Source: a virus. Taken from it: 25,939 nt of DNA. The notes below the pieces were generated by a model. That model saw nothing but the letters and a program-made list of their open reading frames with translations. It was not told the DNA's origin and searched no databases. Position 1 is the stretch's first letter. The number at the start of each line of letters is the position of its first letter. The stretch lies in IMG/VR virus record IMGVR_UViG_3300033145_000358, positions 1-25,939 of that record. The stretch is one strand, 5' to 3'. The position numbers and the translations under genes are program-made. Below are positions 2,695 to 17,434 of the stretch, piece by piece.

Positions 2695-3441
2695 TCAATA
2701 GTCCTGACCATCATTACCTCTGCTGGAAGCCGGAGGAAGATCCCCAATAACCTCTCGATCCAGGTTTGCCGGTTTGAGTGAAGCTATTGCCTCAGCCTTA
2801 TCATCTTTATAATTTTTTTCTGTTTCGCTTAAAGGAATCGGTTTTTCACGACTTTCCTTGTAATCAATAATTACTCCGGTAGCCCAAGTCCTATGCATTT
2901 CTCTCGGTATTCCGTGTGTGGTTGTAGACGGATCCTGACTCATATCACTAGTAGCACTCAAATCACCTATAGCTGTAGGCCAAGTATTACACCAAACCCT
3001 CAAACCATCAGTAACATCGACAATTGACCCGGAATAAATCATCAGGGACTTTCTCAAAAGATCGAATCTCGCACCATAAAGGTTTCCCTTGCTTACCCTG
3101 GAATTATTAAATCTTGCAGTGATATCAGCCTCAGTTGTAATTGGAGCATCGTACTGAGTCATATCAAACTCTTCAAGTTCAATGTAGTTAGTTTCATCTA
3201 ATTTAGCCTCAACGCGCTTGAAGCTAGAGAGTATATCTTGGGGTAGGGGATAGTCTCTCTGATCTACTACTAGGTCTGTGTACTGTGGGATCAATAAAAT
3301 GTCCTCATCGGCCTCTAAGATAGCCTTAGCAAGCTCGTCCTGCCTAACCGCCATCAGAGCAAGGATCTGGGCATCAGTAAAAGTTGTCGAACTAGTGCGT
3401 GTCTTGAATCGAACGTAGGTTGCAAATTCAGCAGGGGTCAT
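2695..3441 (-). CDS. probable head-tail adaptor (connector) protein
   Basis: A 248-aa protein. The N-terminus ('MTPAEFATYVRFKTRTSS', 'TFTDAQILALMAVRQDELAK') is helical and resembles the helical bundle of phage adaptors that bind beneath the portal. The middle 'YPLPQDILSSFKRVEAKLD' and 'LRVWCNTWPTAIGDLS', followed by 'IPREMHRTWATGVIIDYKES', match the usual adaptor order: a 'Y.LP.dil...r....' strand, then an 'ip...h..i...a...y.e' helix. It lies between capsid-region genes and fibre-like genes, where such adaptors usually are. The leader is AU-rich (ACAATAAATC before ATG) without a clear Shine-Dalgarno. Family is inferred from pattern and context. Confidence 0.65.
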   Translation of the reverse strand: MTPAEFATYVRFKTRTSSTTFTDAQILALMAVRQDELAKAILEADEDILLIPQYTDLVVDQRDYPLPQDILSSFKRVEAKLDETNYIELEEFDMTQYDAPITTEADITARFNNSRVSKGNLYGARFDLLRKSLMIYSGSIVDVTDGLRVWCNTWPTAIGDLSATSDMSQDPSTTTHGIPREMHRTWATGVIIDYKESREKPIPLSETEKNYKDDKAEAIASLKPANLDREVIGDLPPASSRGNDGQDY

Positions 3442-5048: not shown

Positions 5049-5558
5049 TTATTGTGCCGCGTCAAACCTCGGAGATAAAAATCCGATATTGTAAAAAGTA
5101 TCAGTTAAGTGACCCGCGCTTAAAAGATCGGAGCTTGCATCAAAGTCTGTAGCTCCAGCGGCAACCTGTATTCTTGCATAACCAAGTGGAGTCAAACCTG
5201 TGGGAATGGCTGGAAGCAATGCTCCACCATCAGTAGAAGCAATGACTCCCATGTGGAGAGTTAGAGCATCAGAAGCATCAATACACACAAGATAGCAAGC
5301 CTCTTGAACCGAATCAGCATCAGCGGGAATGTCGTGGGTAGTAGCTGTAAAAGCTACCTCAGCACCGGTTCCAGTATAAAAAACTCCATTGTTTAGATAT
5401 GCCGGGGAATTACCCATTTTAACTTTAGCGGCGCTACCGGTTCCAATAACAATCCCCGGATCGGCCAAAGCGCGGTACTTGAGATTCGTATTCAATTCAT
5501 CAAAAACATCCATCAATTGCTGATGAGATAGTGATTTTGTTTTGGCTAGTGCTTCCAT
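5049..5558 (-). CDS. virion-like protein, second copy of a tandem pair
   Basis: 169 residues, clearly paralogous along its whole length to the upstream gene (5560-6069) and exactly the same length. Shared blocks are 'KTKxLSHQxLMDxFDELNTN', 'FTATTHDIPADAD', 'VQEACYLxC', 'IPTGLTPxGY' and 'GFLSPRFDA'. The frame is open further upstream to 5630, but homology with the paralogue fixes the start at the ATG at 5558. That ATG lies one base after the paralogue's TAA stop (TAA T ATG). A short helix followed by a beta-rich domain, located just downstream of the major capsid gene, suits a capsid decoration or head-fibre protein. That role is inferred from position only. Confidence 0.75.
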   Translation of the reverse strand: MEALAKTKSLSHQQLMDVFDELNTNLKYRALADPGIVIGTGSAAKVKMGNSPAYLNNGVFYTGTGAEVAFTATTHDIPADADSVQEACYLVCIDASDALTLHMGVIASTDGGALLPAIPTGLTPLGYARIQVAAGATDFDASSDLLSAGHLTDTFYNIGFLSPRFDAAQ

Positions 5559-5559
5559 A

Positions 5560-6069
5560 TTATTGTTCTGCGTCAAATCTTGGGGATAAGAATCCAAGAT
5601 TGACATAAGCATCAGTAATCCAAGTTTCACTCAAATCATCTGTAGTTGCATTGAAATCATCCGTTCCGGCGGCAACTGTAACTCTTACATAACCAATTGG
5701 GGTTAGACCTGTAGGAATTTCTGGTAACAAAGCATTGCCAGAACCAGAAGCAATCTCTCCCATGTGTACAGTGGCAGTACCAGCGGCGTTCAAACATAAA
5801 AGGTAACAAGCTTCCTGGACTGTATCAGCGTCAGCAGGAATATCATGAGTGGTGGCGGTAAAAGCAATGTTGTCCAAAGCTGATTTGGATTTGAAAATAC
5901 CATTGTGTAGATATTTAACAGTAGAAGTAAATTTAAACTGTGTAGCGGTAGCAGAAATAGCCAAAGTCGGAATAGTTAAAGCCCGGTATTTCAGGTTTGT
6001 ATTCAGCTCATCAAACGTATCCATTAACTCCTGGTGAGAGAGTCCTTTTGTTTTATTTAGTACGTCCAT
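5560..6069 (-). CDS. virion-like protein, first copy of a tandem pair
   Basis: 169 residues; the first gene downstream of the major capsid gene and a full-length paralogue of 5049-5558. Roughly half or more of the positions look identical by eye. The helix 'GLSHQELMDTFDELNTNL' at the N-terminus and 'AFTATTHDIPADADTVQEAC' in the middle are the best-conserved parts. The segment around residues 35-65 is the most divergent, which is what would be expected of surface-exposed loops. AAGGA about six bases before the ATG gives a good ribosome site, unlike most structural genes here. Decoration or fibre protein is the best guess; I recognise no named family. Confidence 0.75.
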   Translation of the reverse strand: MDVLNKTKGLSHQELMDTFDELNTNLKYRALTIPTLAISATATQFKFTSTVKYLHNGIFKSKSALDNIAFTATTHDIPADADTVQEACYLLCLNAAGTATVHMGEIASGSGNALLPEIPTGLTPIGYVRVTVAAGTDDFNATTDDLSETWITDAYVNLGFLSPRFDAEQ

Positions 6070-6105: not shown

Positions 6106-7068
6106 TTATTCTGTTACTGCATGTTCTATTCTGCCGATCCAGGATTGATTTAATATTCTAGCAACGTAGGTAGCTTTCCAGCCACTTGTAGCTCTCTGAT
6201 TAAGTGGATCCTCACCCGAACCCAAAGGTTTAACAATGTTTTTAAGAGCCTCGCCGGAAATTCGGGTTTGAGCATAAGCCCTTGTCCCGAAGATCAGGGT
6301 ACAGTGAACGGTAGTAACTAAGGTTCCAGCTTTTGTTTTAGCTTCTGTAGTCATTAAGAACCTGACGTTAGATACTGCGCCAACCTCATCATCCATTACA
6401 TTAGATTTATTCGGATATTTCTCAACTGGTGTCCACCCGGTAGCATCGTCTAAGTCAAAAAGAGTATCTTCACTTATGATTCCAATAAAGGATCTACCAA
6501 CCGGTGAAGTGTTATATCCAGTGGAAGGATCAATCATTTTCATAACAGGTTTAGCGTTGTTTCCTCGAAGAGTCCTGACCATCTCTTTAACTTCGGCTCT
6601 ATTCAATTTCATCGCTGGGCCAACCTCAGCAGTAGTAGTGGCTGTTGAAGCGTACTGAATAGTAGTGCCGGCGGAAATAATATCTCTACAAAGTGTGTCT
6701 AAAGTAAGACCAACCTGATCTCCCAAAACTTCCTCAGCTACGTCAGTCAAAACCGGATCATAGCTTTGCATGTCAACGATATCGGTCACGGTAACATAAT
6801 CACCATATTGTAGAACCGTAGCGGTAAGGTCAGTCGTTGAAAGTTGTTTGCCGGCAGGAGTAACACCCTCAGAAAGAGGTGTGGTAGCAGCGGCCAATAC
6901 TCCATATCTGCGGAATTTAACTACGTTTGTTCCACCCTTGCGTGGAATATCTTTGATTTGTGCAAAACGATTGTGGATGAGAGAAGGAGTTGCTCTATCA
7001 AGCAATAACTTGTTGTAAAAGTTATTAACCTCTGCTGGAATTTCTGTTCTTGTTGTTAGATCTGGCAT
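6106..7068 (-). CDS. major capsid protein, N4-gp56 family
   Basis: A 320-aa protein forming the capsid shell. The N-terminus 'TTRTEIPAEVNNFYNKLLLD' followed by 'KGGTNVVKFRRYGVLAAAT' and 'TPLSEGVTPAGKQLS' matches the N4-gp56 capsid family, as does 'VLQYGDYVTVTDIVDMQSYD'. Further family marks are 'GDQVGLTLDTLCRDII', the helix 'KLNRAEVKEMVRTLRGNNAK' and the late 'IFGTRAYAQTRISG'. The length is usual for the family. It has its own promoter about 80 bases upstream, and a strong hairpin with a U-run lies between promoter and ATG. The leader just before the ATG (TAAAAAATAAATC) has no Shine-Dalgarno, although this should be one of the most highly translated genes. Confidence 0.93.
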   Translation of the reverse strand: MPDLTTRTEIPAEVNNFYNKLLLDRATPSLIHNRFAQIKDIPRKGGTNVVKFRRYGVLAAATTPLSEGVTPAGKQLSTTDLTATVLQYGDYVTVTDIVDMQSYDPVLTDVAEEVLGDQVGLTLDTLCRDIISAGTTIQYASTATTTAEVGPAMKLNRAEVKEMVRTLRGNNAKPVMKMIDPSTGYNTSPVGRSFIGIISEDTLFDLDDATGWTPVEKYPNKSNVMDDEVGAVSNVRFLMTTEAKTKAGTLVTTVHCTLIFGTRAYAQTRISGEALKNIVKPLGSGEDPLNQRATSGWKATYVARILNQSWIGRIEHAVTE

Positions 7069-7084
7069 GATTTATTTTTTATAT

Positions 7085-7116
7085 AAAAAAAGCGCCTGGC
7101 CTTTCGACCTTGCGCT
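7085..7116 (-). terminator. hairpin with GNRA loop and U-run in the capsid leader
   Basis: Read leftward, the RNA is AGCGC AA GGUC GAAA GGCC AG GCGCU followed by a run of seven U. This gives a 5-bp and a 4-bp helix around a 2x2 internal loop, capped by a GAAA tetraloop. The shape is that of an intrinsic terminator. It ends 17 bases before the capsid ATG and is downstream of the capsid promoter. It may be an attenuator, a boundary that stops read-through from the scaffold transcript, or a stabilising 5' hairpin. Confidence 0.65.
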
Positions 7117-7130
7117 CGGTTTTTCCGTTA
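7116..7130 (-). repeat. 15-base leader element, copy 1
   Basis: Leftward sequence TAACGGAAAAACCGA, identical over all 15 bases to the copy at 8381-8395. It contains a small dyad, CGG-AAAAA-CCG. Here it begins 15 bases after the -10 box and abuts the leader hairpin. It lies in the 5' untranslated leader of the capsid gene. Confidence 0.75.
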
Positions 7131-7145
7131 CGACTAATCCCTTTA

Positions 7146-7175
7146 ATAATAAAGGAAGTAAAACCAGCCTGTCAA
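7146..7175 (-). promoter_or_regulatory. sigma-70-type promoter of the capsid gene
   Basis: TTGACA (7175 to 7170), an 18-base spacer, then TATTAT (7151 to 7146), reading leftward in the gap between the 176-aa gene and the capsid gene. The -35 is a perfect consensus. The same arrangement, with identical boxes and spacer length, occurs before the scaffold gene at 8402-8431. The predicted start of transcription is near 7139, giving a leader of about 70 bases. Confidence 0.75.
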
Positions 7176-7183
7176 GAAGATGA

Positions 7184-7714
7184 TTATAATTCCAATCTAT
7201 CGCTAACCGGCTTCCCTGTTTTATGATCTATTCTGTCTATCAAATGATCTTTCCCGGCCAACATCGTAGCACTCTGGGCATCAGCTATCGTATCAGCAAC
7301 CTGCCGGGGAACTTCAACGTAAAGTCCATGAGGAACTATCCACTTAAAACCATTTAGCTGAACAGGAGTGTGCGCCCCTTTCATCAACACTTGTTCTTTT
7401 CTTTTGCTGATTTTATTAAAAACCCACTTTACAACTCCTGGTTCTTCCTTACCCTGTAAGGGGATCAAGATCCTTATTTTCTCCTGCTTCATTAACTTAG
7501 CCCTCATCGTTTCCTTTTTACTCATCCACTTTTTCTCATCCTTTTTTAATTGACCGGGAACAACAACATTAGCACGAAGAGTAGTAATTGTAGCGACAAG
7601 AGGCTTTTTAGTCTCAAAATTCTCAGCATCCTCTTCTGGCATCCCTAATTTAACTACTATTTCCCTTAATTCCTTTACTGTTAATTTCATCAAGTCTGTT
7701 GTTTTGTTTGACAT
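7184..7714 (-). CDS. phage protein with possible SAP/Rho-N-like N-terminus
   Basis: A 176-aa basic protein. The first 30 residues ('LMKLTVKELREIVVKLGMPE') look like the small helix-extended-helix of SAP or Rho N-terminal domains, which bind nucleic acid or protein. A Lys-rich stretch follows, with 'KKDEKKWMSKKETMRAKLMK'. The C-terminal half ('GKEEPGVVKWVFNKIS' to 'LNGFKWIVPHGLYVEVPRQV') is beta-rich with a helical end. It sits between the scaffold and capsid genes, where assembly or head-completion proteins are common. The ATG at 7714 has an AU-rich leader (AAAATAAAATAAC). I recognise no named family beyond the N-terminal pattern. Confidence 0.6.
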   Translation of the reverse strand: MSNKTTDLMKLTVKELREIVVKLGMPEEDAENFETKKPLVATITTLRANVVVPGQLKKDEKKWMSKKETMRAKLMKQEKIRILIPLQGKEEPGVVKWVFNKISKRKEQVLMKGAHTPVQLNGFKWIVPHGLYVEVPRQVADTIADAQSATMLAGKDHLIDRIDHKTGKPVSDRLEL

Positions 7715-7737
7715 GTTATTTTATTTTAACATCTAAT

Positions 7738-8373
7738 TTATACGTTCCGGCCAAGTACCTCATTTCTTTTGGCATCCATCTCTTCTTTGGTAGCCTTACT
7801 CCAATCAACTCCTCCACCAGAGGGTTTTCTAGCAGTAGTACCACCACCCTGTGTATCCTTAGCCTTTTTAGCAGCATCTCTTTCTCTCTGCGCTCCTATT
7901 TTTTGCTGATCTTCGGCAGAAACAATCCGCATAGCATCCCTGGCAGTAAGATTAGGATGAACCTTCATATATTTCAAAGCGTTAGCTCTATATTTACCAA
8001 GTTCAGGATTTTCCCTAATTTGAGAGTCTACTTCTAACTGATCTTTAGCATCTCCTACACCTGCTTTTTTCAATTGCTCAGCAACCACCCGGCCAATTGC
8101 TTTTTTATCTTCCAAATCAACGTCATCATCATCGTCCTTCTTGCCATCATCTTTCTTCTTAGTCTCTCTCCTTGTTTCAGGTTCTACATCTTCCGGATCC
8201 TCATCTTCTTCCTTGAGAGTGTCTTTGTAAGTCTCTTTTTGCTCATCAGTAAGATCTTCTACATTCTCATTCAAAAACTCTTTCTGCTCATCGCTAAGAT
8301 CCTCTTGAGCAACCTCAACCACATCATCCAAAACCAGTTCTTCATTGTTGTTATCTTCTTCTTTCTCTGTCAT
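7738..8373 (-). CDS. probable head scaffolding protein
   Basis: 211 residues. The N-terminal 90 are extremely acidic, with two 'DEQKE' repeats (LSDEQKEF, LTDEQKET) and Asp runs. Lys-rich patches and a helical, coiled-coil-prone stretch follow. The C-terminal quarter is basic ('ERDAAKKAKD', 'WSKATKEEMDAKRNEVLG'). A charged, helical, low-complexity protein encoded between portal and major capsid protein is the classic signature of a scaffold, whose basic C-terminus usually contacts the capsid protein. It has its own promoter (8402-8431) and a short leader without a Shine-Dalgarno. The function is inferred from composition and position, not from homology. Confidence 0.7.
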   Translation of the reverse strand: MTEKEEDNNNEELVLDDVVEVAQEDLSDEQKEFLNENVEDLTDEQKETYKDTLKEEDEDPEDVEPETRRETKKKDDGKKDDDDDVDLEDKKAIGRVVAEQLKKAGVGDAKDQLEVDSQIRENPELGKYRANALKYMKVHPNLTARDAMRIVSAEDQQKIGAQRERDAAKKAKDTQGGGTTARKPSGGGVDWSKATKEEMDAKRNEVLGRNV

Positions 8374-8380
8374 AAAAATA

Positions 8381-8395
8381 TCGGTTTTTCCGTTA
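8381..8395 (-). repeat. 15-base leader element, copy 2
   Basis: Leftward TAACGGAAAAACCGA, identical to the copy at 7116-7130. It begins six bases after the -10 box, so it starts at about the first transcribed base, and it ends eight bases before the scaffold ATG. Its recurrence in the two leaders suggests a shared function at the RNA level or a protein-binding site. Confidence 0.75.
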
Positions 8396-8401
8396 CCTAT
8401 T

Positions 8402-8431
8402 ATAATACAACCGTCCTAACAGGATTGTCAA
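8402..8431 (-). promoter_or_regulatory. sigma-70-type promoter of the scaffold gene
   Basis: TTGACA (8431 to 8426), an 18-base spacer, then TATTAT (8407 to 8402). The -35 box overlaps the stop codon of the 115-aa gene upstream. Box sequences and spacer length match the capsid promoter exactly, and the downstream bases are similar (AATAGG here, TAAAGG there). Expected transcription start is near 8395, giving a leader of about 22 bases. Confidence 0.78.
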
Positions 8432-14864: not shown

Positions 14865-15077
14865 TCAAAGTAAATCCCTCACCGCATCCTGCCCCTTATC
14901 TTCGGTCAACATAATACTCTCGCTAGACTCAAACCTGATTAGCTTTCCAGCATGCTTGTAAATAATGACTTTTCCAAACGAACACTTCCTAAGACACTTT
15001 AACAAGTGAGCTTCTTTGGCAGTGATTTCCACTTTTACCTTAACCTCTGGTTTTTCTGGGACAAGTGGGTTAGTCAT
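14865..15077 (-). CDS. small unknown protein overlapping the TerL stop
   Basis: 70 residues from the ATG at 15077, which overlaps the last eight bases of the TerL gene. A TTG four codons earlier (15089) is less likely. The protein has 'KVKVEITAKEAHLLKCLRKC' followed by 'FGKVIIYKHAGKLIRFESSE', a strand-helix-strand pattern with two cysteines. I recognise no family. The overlap implies translation coupled to the large terminase. Confidence 0.6.
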   Translation of the reverse strand: MTNPLVPEKPEVKVKVEITAKEAHLLKCLRKCSFGKVIIYKHAGKLIRFESSESIMLTEDKGQDAVRDLL

Positions 15078-16386
15078 AGGGATCCACAATTACTTCATTA
15101 ATAATAGCATCCTGCTGTACTACCTTCTCCCGGAAACCAACACCAAAAGTCCTAAAAGCATCAGCCGCGTGACTTGCCCAATCATGCTTTGGTTTTAGTC
15201 TAAATACTTGATTCTCCTCATCCCACTCCTTGTGGTAACTTCTCAAAGCATTTAGTCCCCGCTCGCACTTTTCCTTATCAAACCAGCTCCGGCCAAGCAT
15301 ATTTCGACAAGCTTCTATTCCATCTTCAATAGGGAGCCGGGGTACTACCTCGAACCTGATACCCAACTTCCTAGCCGTTTCTAGCCGGCTTCTTCCGGTT
15401 GTTAATTCCCTGACCTTGATGTCATGAGGAGCATAGTGAGTTCCGTACACATACGGTTTGTTCTTTAAATACTTTACATAATAGTGAAGCCCCTCGCCGC
15501 TAGACTCAAAATAATCAATAAAATGCAATTCTTTCCCGGCTACCTGCATGAACCAAATACTCATCGAATCATCAATCCCCAGATCCCAAAAGGTATGAAC
15601 CTCAGCGGCGGTGTCATACGGAACCTTAGTAATTCTTCCATCCTCCTCAGCCAACATCAACTGTTGGGCATAGTAAGCACCCTGGATCGGAACCTCAAAG
15701 CTACACATATATTCCTGTTGGTAGAGAGCATCATTGCCGTCCTTCGATATAATCTCTAACTTCTCTTGTTTTAAGATACGCTCGGAAATAGCCTTTGTAT
15801 CCTCAACCGTCAAGACCTCTGAATACCAAACATCCGGAAACTTCTTGGCAAGCTCTAGCAACTGATAGCCGTGATTCTTTCCTCTCGGAGTATAGATGAA
15901 GGCCGCCCACCCATCATTCTCTGCCAAAATCGGTCTAATGAAGTCCCACGCCGCCGGATTGCACAATGCATACTCACTAAAAATACAACCAACCGGATTA
16001 ACACCCACAATCGAATCAATCTTATCTGTACCGACCACCTGATAGATAGAACCGTTCATCATCTCAATTAACATGTCAGTATTATCAACACGCTTCCGGA
16101 GAGCTTTGGGAATGTGATCTGTAAACTTCATGCCATCCCTGTCCCGGCCATTCCAAATGACCTTCTTCCCCTGCTTGTACGTTGGAAAGAAATGGTAATA
16201 CCCTCCCACCCTCTCGTACATCTTCTTCCCAGTGTGAGCTATAAAGGTTTTGTCTTTCCCGGAACGCCTATGCCAAACGCAAACAGCTCTTTTTACTCCC
16301 TCGTCCAACGCTCTTAAAACAGGAAGCTGATAATCGCGAGGAGTAAATTCAAATGGCAGTCTAATTTTTTCGTCTTGGTTTGGCAT
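15070..16386 (-). CDS. terL: terminase large subunit (packaging ATPase/nuclease)
   Basis: A 438-aa protein that pumps DNA into the prohead and cuts it. The N-terminal ATPase has 'WHRRSGKDKT' (residues 39-48), a variant Walker A of the terminase type RRxGKxxT. It also has 'GCIFSEYAL' (133-141), a Walker B with Glu138 as the likely catalytic residue, and 'YTPRGKNHG' (165-173), the coupling motif. The C-terminal RNase H-like nuclease has 'FWDLGIDDS' (Asp268), 'YAPHDIKVRE' (Asp322) and 'HDWASHAADAFRTF' (Asp402 and Asp409), supplying the acidic metal ligands. All motifs are intact and the length is usual. The start overlaps the end of the TerS gene by 26 bases. Confidence 0.93.
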   Translation of the reverse strand: MPNQDEKIRLPFEFTPRDYQLPVLRALDEGVKRAVCVWHRRSGKDKTFIAHTGKKMYERVGGYYHFFPTYKQGKKVIWNGRDRDGMKFTDHIPKALRKRVDNTDMLIEMMNGSIYQVVGTDKIDSIVGVNPVGCIFSEYALCNPAAWDFIRPILAENDGWAAFIYTPRGKNHGYQLLELAKKFPDVWYSEVLTVEDTKAISERILKQEKLEIISKDGNDALYQQEYMCSFEVPIQGAYYAQQLMLAEEDGRITKVPYDTAAEVHTFWDLGIDDSMSIWFMQVAGKELHFIDYFESSGEGLHYYVKYLKNKPYVYGTHYAPHDIKVRELTTGRSRLETARKLGIRFEVVPRLPIEDGIEACRNMLGRSWFDKEKCERGLNALRSYHKEWDEENQVFRLKPKHDWASHAADAFRTFGVGFREKVVQQDAIINEVIVDPYD

Positions 16387-16906
16387 ATTTAGTTATTTCA
16401 ACCACCTTAACCGTATGCTCACTCTTCTCCGGCGCGTACTTACCTCTCTTCTTGTAGTACATGTCAATTGCAGTATTAGAAGCAGGAAGATTCTTACTCT
16501 GCATTATATTTTTGAAATGTCTTAACTCGACCCTTTTTTCCGTATACCCCTCGTCAGACAAAACTTTGTTGATATAACTCTCTATCTTAATGGATCTTAG
16601 GTTGTCTCTTCCTATTTGAGCGGCAACATTCGTAGCAACCACCCTTCTTCTCTTTTCTTTATCAGTTAATAACTTCCAGGGAATTTTACACAAATGCTTG
16701 TTCGTTATCGAATAAACCTCTAGGGCGGCAACCGTTAAATTTGAATCTTCCTCCAAATAAGCATCACACCAAAGTTTTTGTTTTGCCGTGAGAGTATGGG
16801 ACTTACCATCAGTATCTTTGAATTTAAAAGGGAAAGGACTGATTCTTCTTTTTGGCTTGGCGGACTTCTTAGCCTTAGCCTTTCCGTTTTTCGGTTGTGG
16901 CTTCAT
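16361..16906 (-). CDS. terminase small subunit (probable)
   Basis: 181 residues from the ATG at 16906. A GTG five codons upstream is less likely because it would lie over the -10-like box. The Lys/Pro-rich N-terminus is followed by 'LTAKQKLWCDAYLEEDSNLT' and 'VAALEVYSITNKH', the helix-turn-helix start typical of small terminase subunits ('lt.kq..f...Yl...n.t.Aa...'). 'IESYINKVLSDEGYTEKRVE' and 'HFKNIMQSKNLPASNTAIDM' follow, then 'YYKKRGKYAPEKSE', another TerS-like ending. It would recognise the packaging site and load TerL. It directly precedes and overlaps the terL gene. It lacks a Shine-Dalgarno. Confidence 0.82.
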   Translation of the reverse strand: MKPQPKNGKAKAKKSAKPKRRISPFPFKFKDTDGKSHTLTAKQKLWCDAYLEEDSNLTVAALEVYSITNKHLCKIPWKLLTDKEKRRRVVATNVAAQIGRDNLRSIKIESYINKVLSDEGYTEKRVELRHFKNIMQSKNLPASNTAIDMYYKKRGKYAPEKSEHTVKVVEITKYAKPRRKN

Positions 16907-16963: not shown

Positions 16964-17434
16964 TTACGCGGAATCCGGAGAAACCACGATATCCTCAGCG
17001 GTTAGGGTGAAACGCTTGCCAGCAAAGTCGAAACTAAACTCTTCACCTGCAATAGCCGTTTCCGCAAAATCCTTGATGTTTTGCACAAACACCGGCGTAT
17101 CCTCTACCGTAGAAAAGGGGACAGTACCACCAGAGGGATCCCCCGACACAGAACCAGAAGAAATAGGGGGAGGAGCAACGGCGCTGTTAGGTGGCTTGGC
17201 CTCTCTTACCGCCAACGGTCTACCACTCAGGTCAGTCTTATCAAACGTTTCAATGGCATGGCGCGCCTCGTCTTCCGTCAACATTTCAACAAACCCAAAG
17301 CCCCTCGACCTCCCGGTATCTCTATCCATGATGATGATGGAAGATACAACCGTTCCGGCTTGCTTAAAATGGTGAGCCAAATCATCAGCGATAACACCCC
17401 AAGACAAATTACCTACATATAGTTTTTTATTCAA
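16964..17434 (-). CDS. RRM-domain RNA-binding protein
   Basis: A 156-aa protein with one RNA-recognition motif. Residues 5-10 are LYVGNL (RNP2) and 44-51 are RGFGFVEM (RNP1). The other expected elements are 'DLAHHFKQAGTVVSSIIIMD' and 'DEARHAIETFDKTDLSGRPL' with 'AVREAK'. Both RNP motifs keep their aromatic residues, so single-stranded RNA binding is likely. Residues 80-110 are a Pro/Ser/Gly-rich linker, and a small acidic C-terminal domain follows ('AGEEFSFDFAGKRFTLTAED'). The start is TTG at 17434, fixed because the first RRM strand begins two codons later. It lies between an HNH gene and TerS. RRM proteins are rare in phages. The target RNA is unknown. Confidence 0.85.
   Translation of the reverse strand: MNKKLYVGNLSWGVIADDLAHHFKQAGTVVSSIIIMDRDTGRSRGFGFVEMLTEDEARHAIETFDKTDLSGRPLAVREAKPPNSAVAPPPISSGSVSGDPSGGTVPFSTVEDTPVFVQNIKDFAETAIAGEEFSFDFAGKRFTLTAEDIVVSPDSA

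Follow-up and report, generated by a model that had tools for sequence, protein, structure and literature searches.

In the window, the whole 25,939-nucleotide stretch of viral DNA from IMG/VR analysed here, the capsid gene, a scaffold-like gene, their promoters and two copies of a short element all lie on the minus strand, with the genes running from right to left. The major capsid protein (320 aa, 6106..7068, ATG at 7068) matches PHROG 1357, major head protein (E = 1.6e-62). The 211-aa acidic protein encoded at 7738..8373 has no PHROG or Pfam match; its gene lies between those for portal and capsid, a position kept in 11 of 11 relatives compared, which makes it the probable scaffolding protein. 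Thus, of the two gene identities given by the first-pass annotation, which was made from the letters alone, the capsid is confirmed by homology, and the scaffold is a probable assignment from position and acidic character.

Both genes are preceded by the same promoter-like arrangement. For the capsid gene, the −35 box TTGACA is at 7170..7175 and the −10 box TATTAT at 7146..7151; for the scaffold gene, the same boxes are found at 8426..8431 and 8402..8407, the spacer being 18 nt in each case. TTGACA-N18-TATTAT occurs at two sites in the window, only in these two leaders. Downstream of each −10 box lies an identical 15-mer (TAACGGAAAAACCGA), which has two exact copies in the window: the capsid copy, at 7116..7130, starts 15 nt after TATTAT, and the scaffold copy, at 8381..8395, 6 nt after TATTAT and 7 nt before the ATG at 8373. 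In the capsid copy, CGG (7127-7125) and CCG (7119-7117) flank AAAAA as an inner hairpin. Judging from the promoters, the element is presumably transcribed. The first-pass annotation had called the twin promoters, the identical 15-mer, its unequal distances from the −10 boxes and the CGG-AAAAA-CCG dyad, and all of these are borne out on the minus strand. Elsewhere in the window, two adjacent genes (5049-5630 and 5560-6069) encode similar proteins, e.g. SHQQLMDVFDELNTNLKYRAL and SHQELMDTFDELNTNLKYRAL, and are tandem paralogues.

In an order-1 simulation, about 0.8 repeated 15-mers are expected anywhere in such a window, so the repeat by itself is weak evidence. Relatives were gathered by capsid-based searches of IMG/VR and by a pattern combining promoter and element. 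The pattern matched 15 IMG/VR stretches; nine of these are scaffold or capsid leaders, for which a rough estimate puts the number expected by chance at about 0.01, and the marine matches (L012, L015, L016, L018, L022 and L026) represent one different locus without this gene context and were set aside. Conservation in the scaffold and capsid leaders of relatives indicates that the element is not a chance occurrence, and the recurrence upstream of both genes that the first-pass annotation had proposed to look for was found. A recent duplication of the whole region is unlikely: the spacers are dissimilar, as that annotation had noted, every phage retains a pair of its own, and within one phage the stems at the two sites can differ (L037 and L055).

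The resulting set comprised 58 non-redundant capsid leaders and 41 non-redundant scaffold leaders, and the conserved RNA hairpin is present in about 60 related phages. The layout at the capsid site of relatives is promoter, element, GC-rich hairpin, U-run and AUG, and that at the scaffold site is promoter, element and AUG; promoter-like sequence precedes the element in 57 of the 58 capsid leaders. In the capsid tree, nearly all element-bearing phages fall in one clade of 62 rows, and among its five unlabelled rows are the window under another name, contigs not long enough to span the leader and rows nearly identical to element-bearing ones. A second, separate element-bearing group is small (L061, L094, L095 and L247), and the element is absent from more distant capsid relatives. 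Absence from close relatives that keep both genes, an outcome that the first-pass annotation had said would overturn its claim, was not encountered: relatives in the clade that keep both genes and have a sequenced leader also have the element.

The inner 3-bp stem shows ten different pairings in the 58 capsid leaders (CGG/CCG, UGG/CCA, AGG/CCU, CAG/CUG, CUG/CAG, CCG/CGG, CGA/UCG, GGA/UCC, GGG/CCC and UAG/CUA), and RNAalifold, run on an alignment, detects double-sided substitutions in each of the three pairs, although these pair counts are inflated because detection of the element demanded paired stems. Among high-scoring capsid leaders of the clade that lacked a strict match and had a sequenced leader, only L036, L041 and L045 have non-Watson-Crick inner stems, each with a U·G pair, and none of those listed has a broken one. 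The loop is AAAAA almost throughout, single changes being tolerated. The shared element had been described as a fixed sequence; its shape and loop are indeed kept, whereas the letters of the stem covary. On the RNA-like strand the loop is A-rich in 107 of 110 leaders and T-rich in one of 110, and this strand specificity speaks for a hairpin in RNA rather than a dyad in DNA.

Three further observations concern possible related structures. In the window, the first codons of the small terminase gene (ATGAAGCCACAACCGAAAAACGGAAAGG) are closely followed, at 16883-16897 on the minus strand, by CCG-AAAAA-CGG, a stem variant known from relatives, with TGCTATACT upstream; this could be a third site or chance coding sequence. 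Several element-lacking phages (L067, L076, L077, L102, L253 and L256) have a capsid leader of another kind, which also looks conserved and contains a hairpin, for example GGAAUAUGUCGCAAUAUUCC; L067 and L077 gave no Rfam match. Scaffold leaders of the element-lacking phages L065-L104 (e.g. L071, L079, L085 and L090) have another structured-looking form in common, GTTTT...CGCCATTTC or AGTTTTAACCCGTTTTCT between complementary arms followed by GTGC, and those scanned had no Rfam match.

Between the capsid copy of the element and the capsid gene lies a terminator-like hairpin with a GAAA loop (AGCGCAAGGTCGAAAGGCCAGGCGC, 7092..7116, minus strand; RNAfold −14.7 kcal/mol), followed by a U7 tract (7085..7091); both the hairpin and the U-run are conserved in relatives, and U-runs directly 3' of the hairpin occur in nearly every capsid leader. 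A simple consensus terminator scan of the window did not flag this hairpin because its stem has internal mismatches. The nucleotides flanking the element on its 5' side can form base pairs with the hairpin's 5' arm: in the window, CGU at 7130..7132 (minus strand) pairs with GCG at 7115-7113, forming an outer stem of three pairs, one of them G·U, and in relatives this stem has 3-6 pairs. The 5' arm of the terminator hairpin thus doubles as the 3' strand of an antiterminator, and the capsid leader can fold in either of two ways.

To quantify the outer stem, we compared its pairing score with that obtained after swapping 3' flanks between phages. The observed score was 9.65 compared with 7.61 ± 0.26 in the permuted sets (z about 7.6; 0 of 5000 shuffles reached the observed value), and the test is conservative because relatives share both flanks. 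The signal is gone at offsets of +6 and +10 and when the 5' flank is taken from 14 nt upstream, and is kept after collapsing to 46 leaders (z = 7.0). When the RNA is cut before the 3' arm of the terminator, the predicted fold in nearly every leader is the antiterminator hairpin (median −6 kcal/mol), composed of the outer stem, one asymmetric internal loop, the inner stem and the A-rich loop. Across leaders, the terminator hairpin is the stronger of the two (median −14 kcal/mol). Mutually exclusive folds of which the terminator is the stronger are the signature of an attenuator, with termination by default and an antiterminator that would need help, and on comparison of the leader sequences the reading of the capsid leader as such a putative antiterminator/terminator pair is well supported.

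In most leaders of one subgroup (L032, L033, L037, L040, L042-L044, L046, L047, L053, L056, L201, L203 and L209), the 5' flank of the element is also complementary, over 6-10 bp, to sequence beyond the U-run (z = 7.8 by permutation), and on a transcript that has read through, this third pairing could close a stable 5' structure. In the window's group, a ribosome binding site is not obvious in many capsid leaders.

All 41 scaffold leaders bear the element near the AUG; in most relatives it lies 0-12 nt before this codon and near the transcription start predicted from the −10 box. Scaffold sites are without a terminator, with the exception of L025, where an element, a terminator and a second element follow one another. 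Across the element, UAGU pairs with ACUA(UG) in many scaffold leaders, covering part of the AUG, and permutation support for this outer stem is moderate (z = 4.1, AUG included). The scaffold copy may serve translational control or the loading of a factor.

Because the MAFFT alignment misplaces the outermost base of the inner stem, additional sites were sought in 2.39 Mb not with a covariance model but with a purpose-written scan for the element followed by a terminator. The scan identified 69 unique sites compared with one in the reversed control. Besides capsid leaders, the unit precedes a gene homologous to the one at 2695-3441 in the window (L054 and L235), ITELT-type proteins (L003 and L230) and a 149-aa protein (L020); further non-capsid sites are found in L062, L094, L095, L197 and L247, and L061 has two units in tandem. 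Searches of whole records found one to three sites of the GG/CC type in records having any. That some relatives have the unit ahead of further late structural genes is suggestive of a small late-gene regulon.

When gene content was compared between 13 element-bearing and seven element-lacking records, a single family, small proteins of 67-74 aa resembling DUF2292, was present in all of the former and none of the latter (13/13 vs. 0/7; the next best family, 9/13 vs. 0/7). The association (Fisher p = 1.3 × 10−5) is optimistic and partly reflects shared ancestry, given that element-bearing phages mostly belong to one capsid clade. In a profile search, the protein was detected in 20 of 24 element-bearing and one of 18 element-lacking phages; the one match among the latter scored 14 bits, and three of the four misses among the former are short fragments. 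The protein also occurs in L061, L094, L095 and L247, the divergent group of phages with the element. The whole collection was scanned for the small protein with a profile of a closer subset, profile A5 being too variable; all loci found in this way belong to the same phage group, and the element is present wherever the leaders are covered.

The window encodes a 74-aa member at 14868..15089 (minus strand). Its resemblance to DUF2292 (PF10055) is sub-threshold, at 12.9 bits against a gathering cut-off of 22. AlphaFold2 predicts a helix and a beta hairpin (pLDDT 79, pTM 0.49), for which no fold-search match and no recognised RNA-binding fold were found. Being the sole family with the 13/13 vs. 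0/7 distribution, the DUF2292-like protein is the leading candidate for a trans-acting partner of the element, and we regard this co-occurrence as a lead rather than proof.

Several other candidates and readings were discarded. The window's RRM RNA-binding protein (16964-17434; PF00076, E = 3.8e-17), also found in three related records, is present in only four of 35 records, and BglG-type and ANTAR proteins fail as partners since their domains are absent from 13 element-bearing phage records. A CsrA-like reading of ACGGA does not hold because GGA is lost in the covarying stems CUG/CAG, CAG/CUG and CCG/CGG. Base pairing between the A5 loop and the U-run is not supported: where the loop reads, for example, AUAUA or AACAA, the U-run is unchanged. 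Ribosome-mediated attenuation with a leader peptide was discarded because the window has no start codon between the predicted transcription start and the element.

We propose a small RNA switch of which the element forms the apical portion. The nascent capsid leader would fold first as the antiterminator, with an outer stem of 3-6 pairs, an A-rich internal loop, the 3-bp inner stem and the AAAAA loop. By default, the terminator would win and transcription would end before the capsid gene; a trans-acting factor bound to the inner hairpin and internal loop would hold the antiterminator and let RNA polymerase enter the capsid gene. The likeliest factor appears to be the co-occurring phage protein of 67-74 aa. 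At the scaffold gene, where the hairpin would be at or near the 5' end of the RNA before the AUG, the same factor would alter translation or be loaded. We assign a probability of about 0.62 to this switch as a whole, that is, an antiterminator/terminator pair in the capsid leader held by a factor, most likely the DUF2292-like protein, with the same hairpin at the scaffold AUG. Conservation and covariation of the hairpin, mutually exclusive pairing in the capsid leader and co-occurrence with the small protein come directly from comparison of relatives; from these patterns we infer termination, readthrough, the direction of regulation, the role of the small protein and its putative RNA binding.

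The first-pass annotation had suggested common control of the two head genes at the RNA level or through a protein. This core idea, with a shared leader element as its basis, is supported, but the probable attenuator at the capsid copy had been overlooked; the capsid hairpin with its U-run, the adjacency of the scaffold copy to the AUG, the units before other structural genes and the candidate protein were all lacking from that description.

An alternative reading is processive antitermination, in which the hairpin, like nut or put, would modify the polymerase at both promoters so that it passes over the terminator of the capsid leader and those further on, and the overlap with the terminator would be secondary. 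The element is indeed located just 3' of the promoters, its 3-bp stem and A-rich pentaloop resemble boxB hairpins, the scaffold site is usually without a local terminator, and polymerases from the scaffold promoter must cross the capsid-leader terminator 1.2 kb further on. We consider this reading credible but unlikely, since covariation maintains the outer stem that overlaps the terminator's 5' arm, and processive action would require no such stem. The placement resembles that of putL, just downstream of PL, but the element is far smaller than put, which is about 70 nt long and has two stems (PMC9378689).

Autogenous control, in which free scaffold (or coat) protein, bound to the hairpin, would repress translation from its own AUG while promoting readthrough into the capsid gene and thereby keep the two in proportion, would explain why the sites are located at exactly the two genes whose products must be kept in ratio. 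Unassembled scaffolding protein of phage P22 depresses its own synthesis, and the UAGU/ACUA(UG) pairing that covers part of the AUG in many scaffold leaders is compatible with such repression. The presence of homologous scaffolds and capsids in element-lacking relatives, the fact that some relatives have sites ahead of structural genes of unrelated kinds and the lack of an evident shared RNA-binding motif in the scaffold alignment nevertheless render this possibility improbable.

Conceivably, there is no switch, and the element and hairpin form a stabiliser of the mRNA 5' end or a translation feature, the U-run being non-terminating. The third pairing of the subgroup would close such a 5' structure, and the missing ribosome binding site in many capsid leaders of the window's group fits a translational role; we rate this explanation as quite improbable because it accounts neither for the U-runs right after the hairpin in nearly every capsid leader nor for the covarying, mutually exclusive stems. 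Finally, a repressor operator in DNA, with the CGG-N5-CCG dyad near the predicted transcription start, is highly improbable even though dyads covary in operators too, given that it should occur in both orientations, unlike the A-rich loop, and leaves the outer stem and its terminator overlap unexplained.

Tailed phages in general face the problem of controlling the amounts of capsid and scaffold proteins. A major capsid gene attenuated by a leader RNA that is common to the scaffold gene was not found in Rfam or in the literature searched. If the proposed antiterminator/terminator switch is real, the few RNA-binding antiterminators known so far would be joined by a new protein family, and a compact regulated terminator part would become available; as the RNA and the terminator are defined and there is one small candidate protein, the mechanism is testable in a simple in vitro transcription assay. 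Tentatively, and as a possibility rather than an expectation, DUF2292-like proteins may be a new class of phage RNA-binding antiterminator that uses one hairpin both to release an attenuator at the capsid gene and to act at the scaffold start codon, setting the timing and ratio of head proteins.

When compared with known systems, the element had no counterpart in Rfam: in the window, at E ≤ 1, only two tRNA genes were returned (RF00005; 18705-18776 and 18818-18886, minus strand), and ten loci, including the element-bearing L033, L047 and L056, gave no match at the gathering score. The motif was not found in the literature searched, the coverage of which leaves out most subscription journals. 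The lambda nut site (boxA/boxB), on which N acts, contains a small promoter-proximal hairpin with an A-rich pentaloop at a phage control point. The element is likewise a promoter-proximal small RNA hairpin with an A-rich pentaloop at a late or early control point of a phage, but its stem is only 3 bp, varies in sequence and overlaps a terminator directly. The put RNA of HK022, which likewise lies near the promoter in two phage leaders that have terminators further downstream, is about 70 nt with two long stems and acts without a protein and not via terminator overlap (PMC9378689), in contrast to the small hairpin adjoining a terminator described here.

The closest parallels are with RNAs held by proteins. 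The RAT of BglG, LicT and SacY is a hairpin with asymmetric internal loops that overlaps and excludes a terminator, is held by protein and is common to several operons (PMC3369936). The antiterminator of the element also overlaps and excludes the terminator, as indicated by the localised outer-stem signal (z = 7.6), but has one internal loop in predicted folds compared with two in RAT (PMC3369936), differs in sequence, serves phage structural genes rather than sugar operons, and occurs also beside a start codon without a terminator. The CAT RNA-binding domain (PF03123) is absent from the 13 element-bearing phage records, control genomes being positive; a protein of this type could conceivably be supplied by the host. 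In leaders regulated by the ANTAR proteins NasR, AmiR and EutV, a distal stem overlaps the terminator, is held by protein and is common across a regulon (PMC3369936). The element is also a small hairpin whose distal stem overlaps a terminator in several leaders; however, it is a single hairpin with an A-rich pentaloop, whereas ANTAR leaders have two hairpins with A1 and G4 loop residues, and the ANTAR domain (PF03861) is absent from the same 13 records. With one internal loop, a single A-rich-loop hairpin and neither a CAT nor an ANTAR domain, the element is filed under neither family, and we rate the logic of the proposed switch as protein-directed antitermination of the RAT/ANTAR kind, reached with a different RNA.
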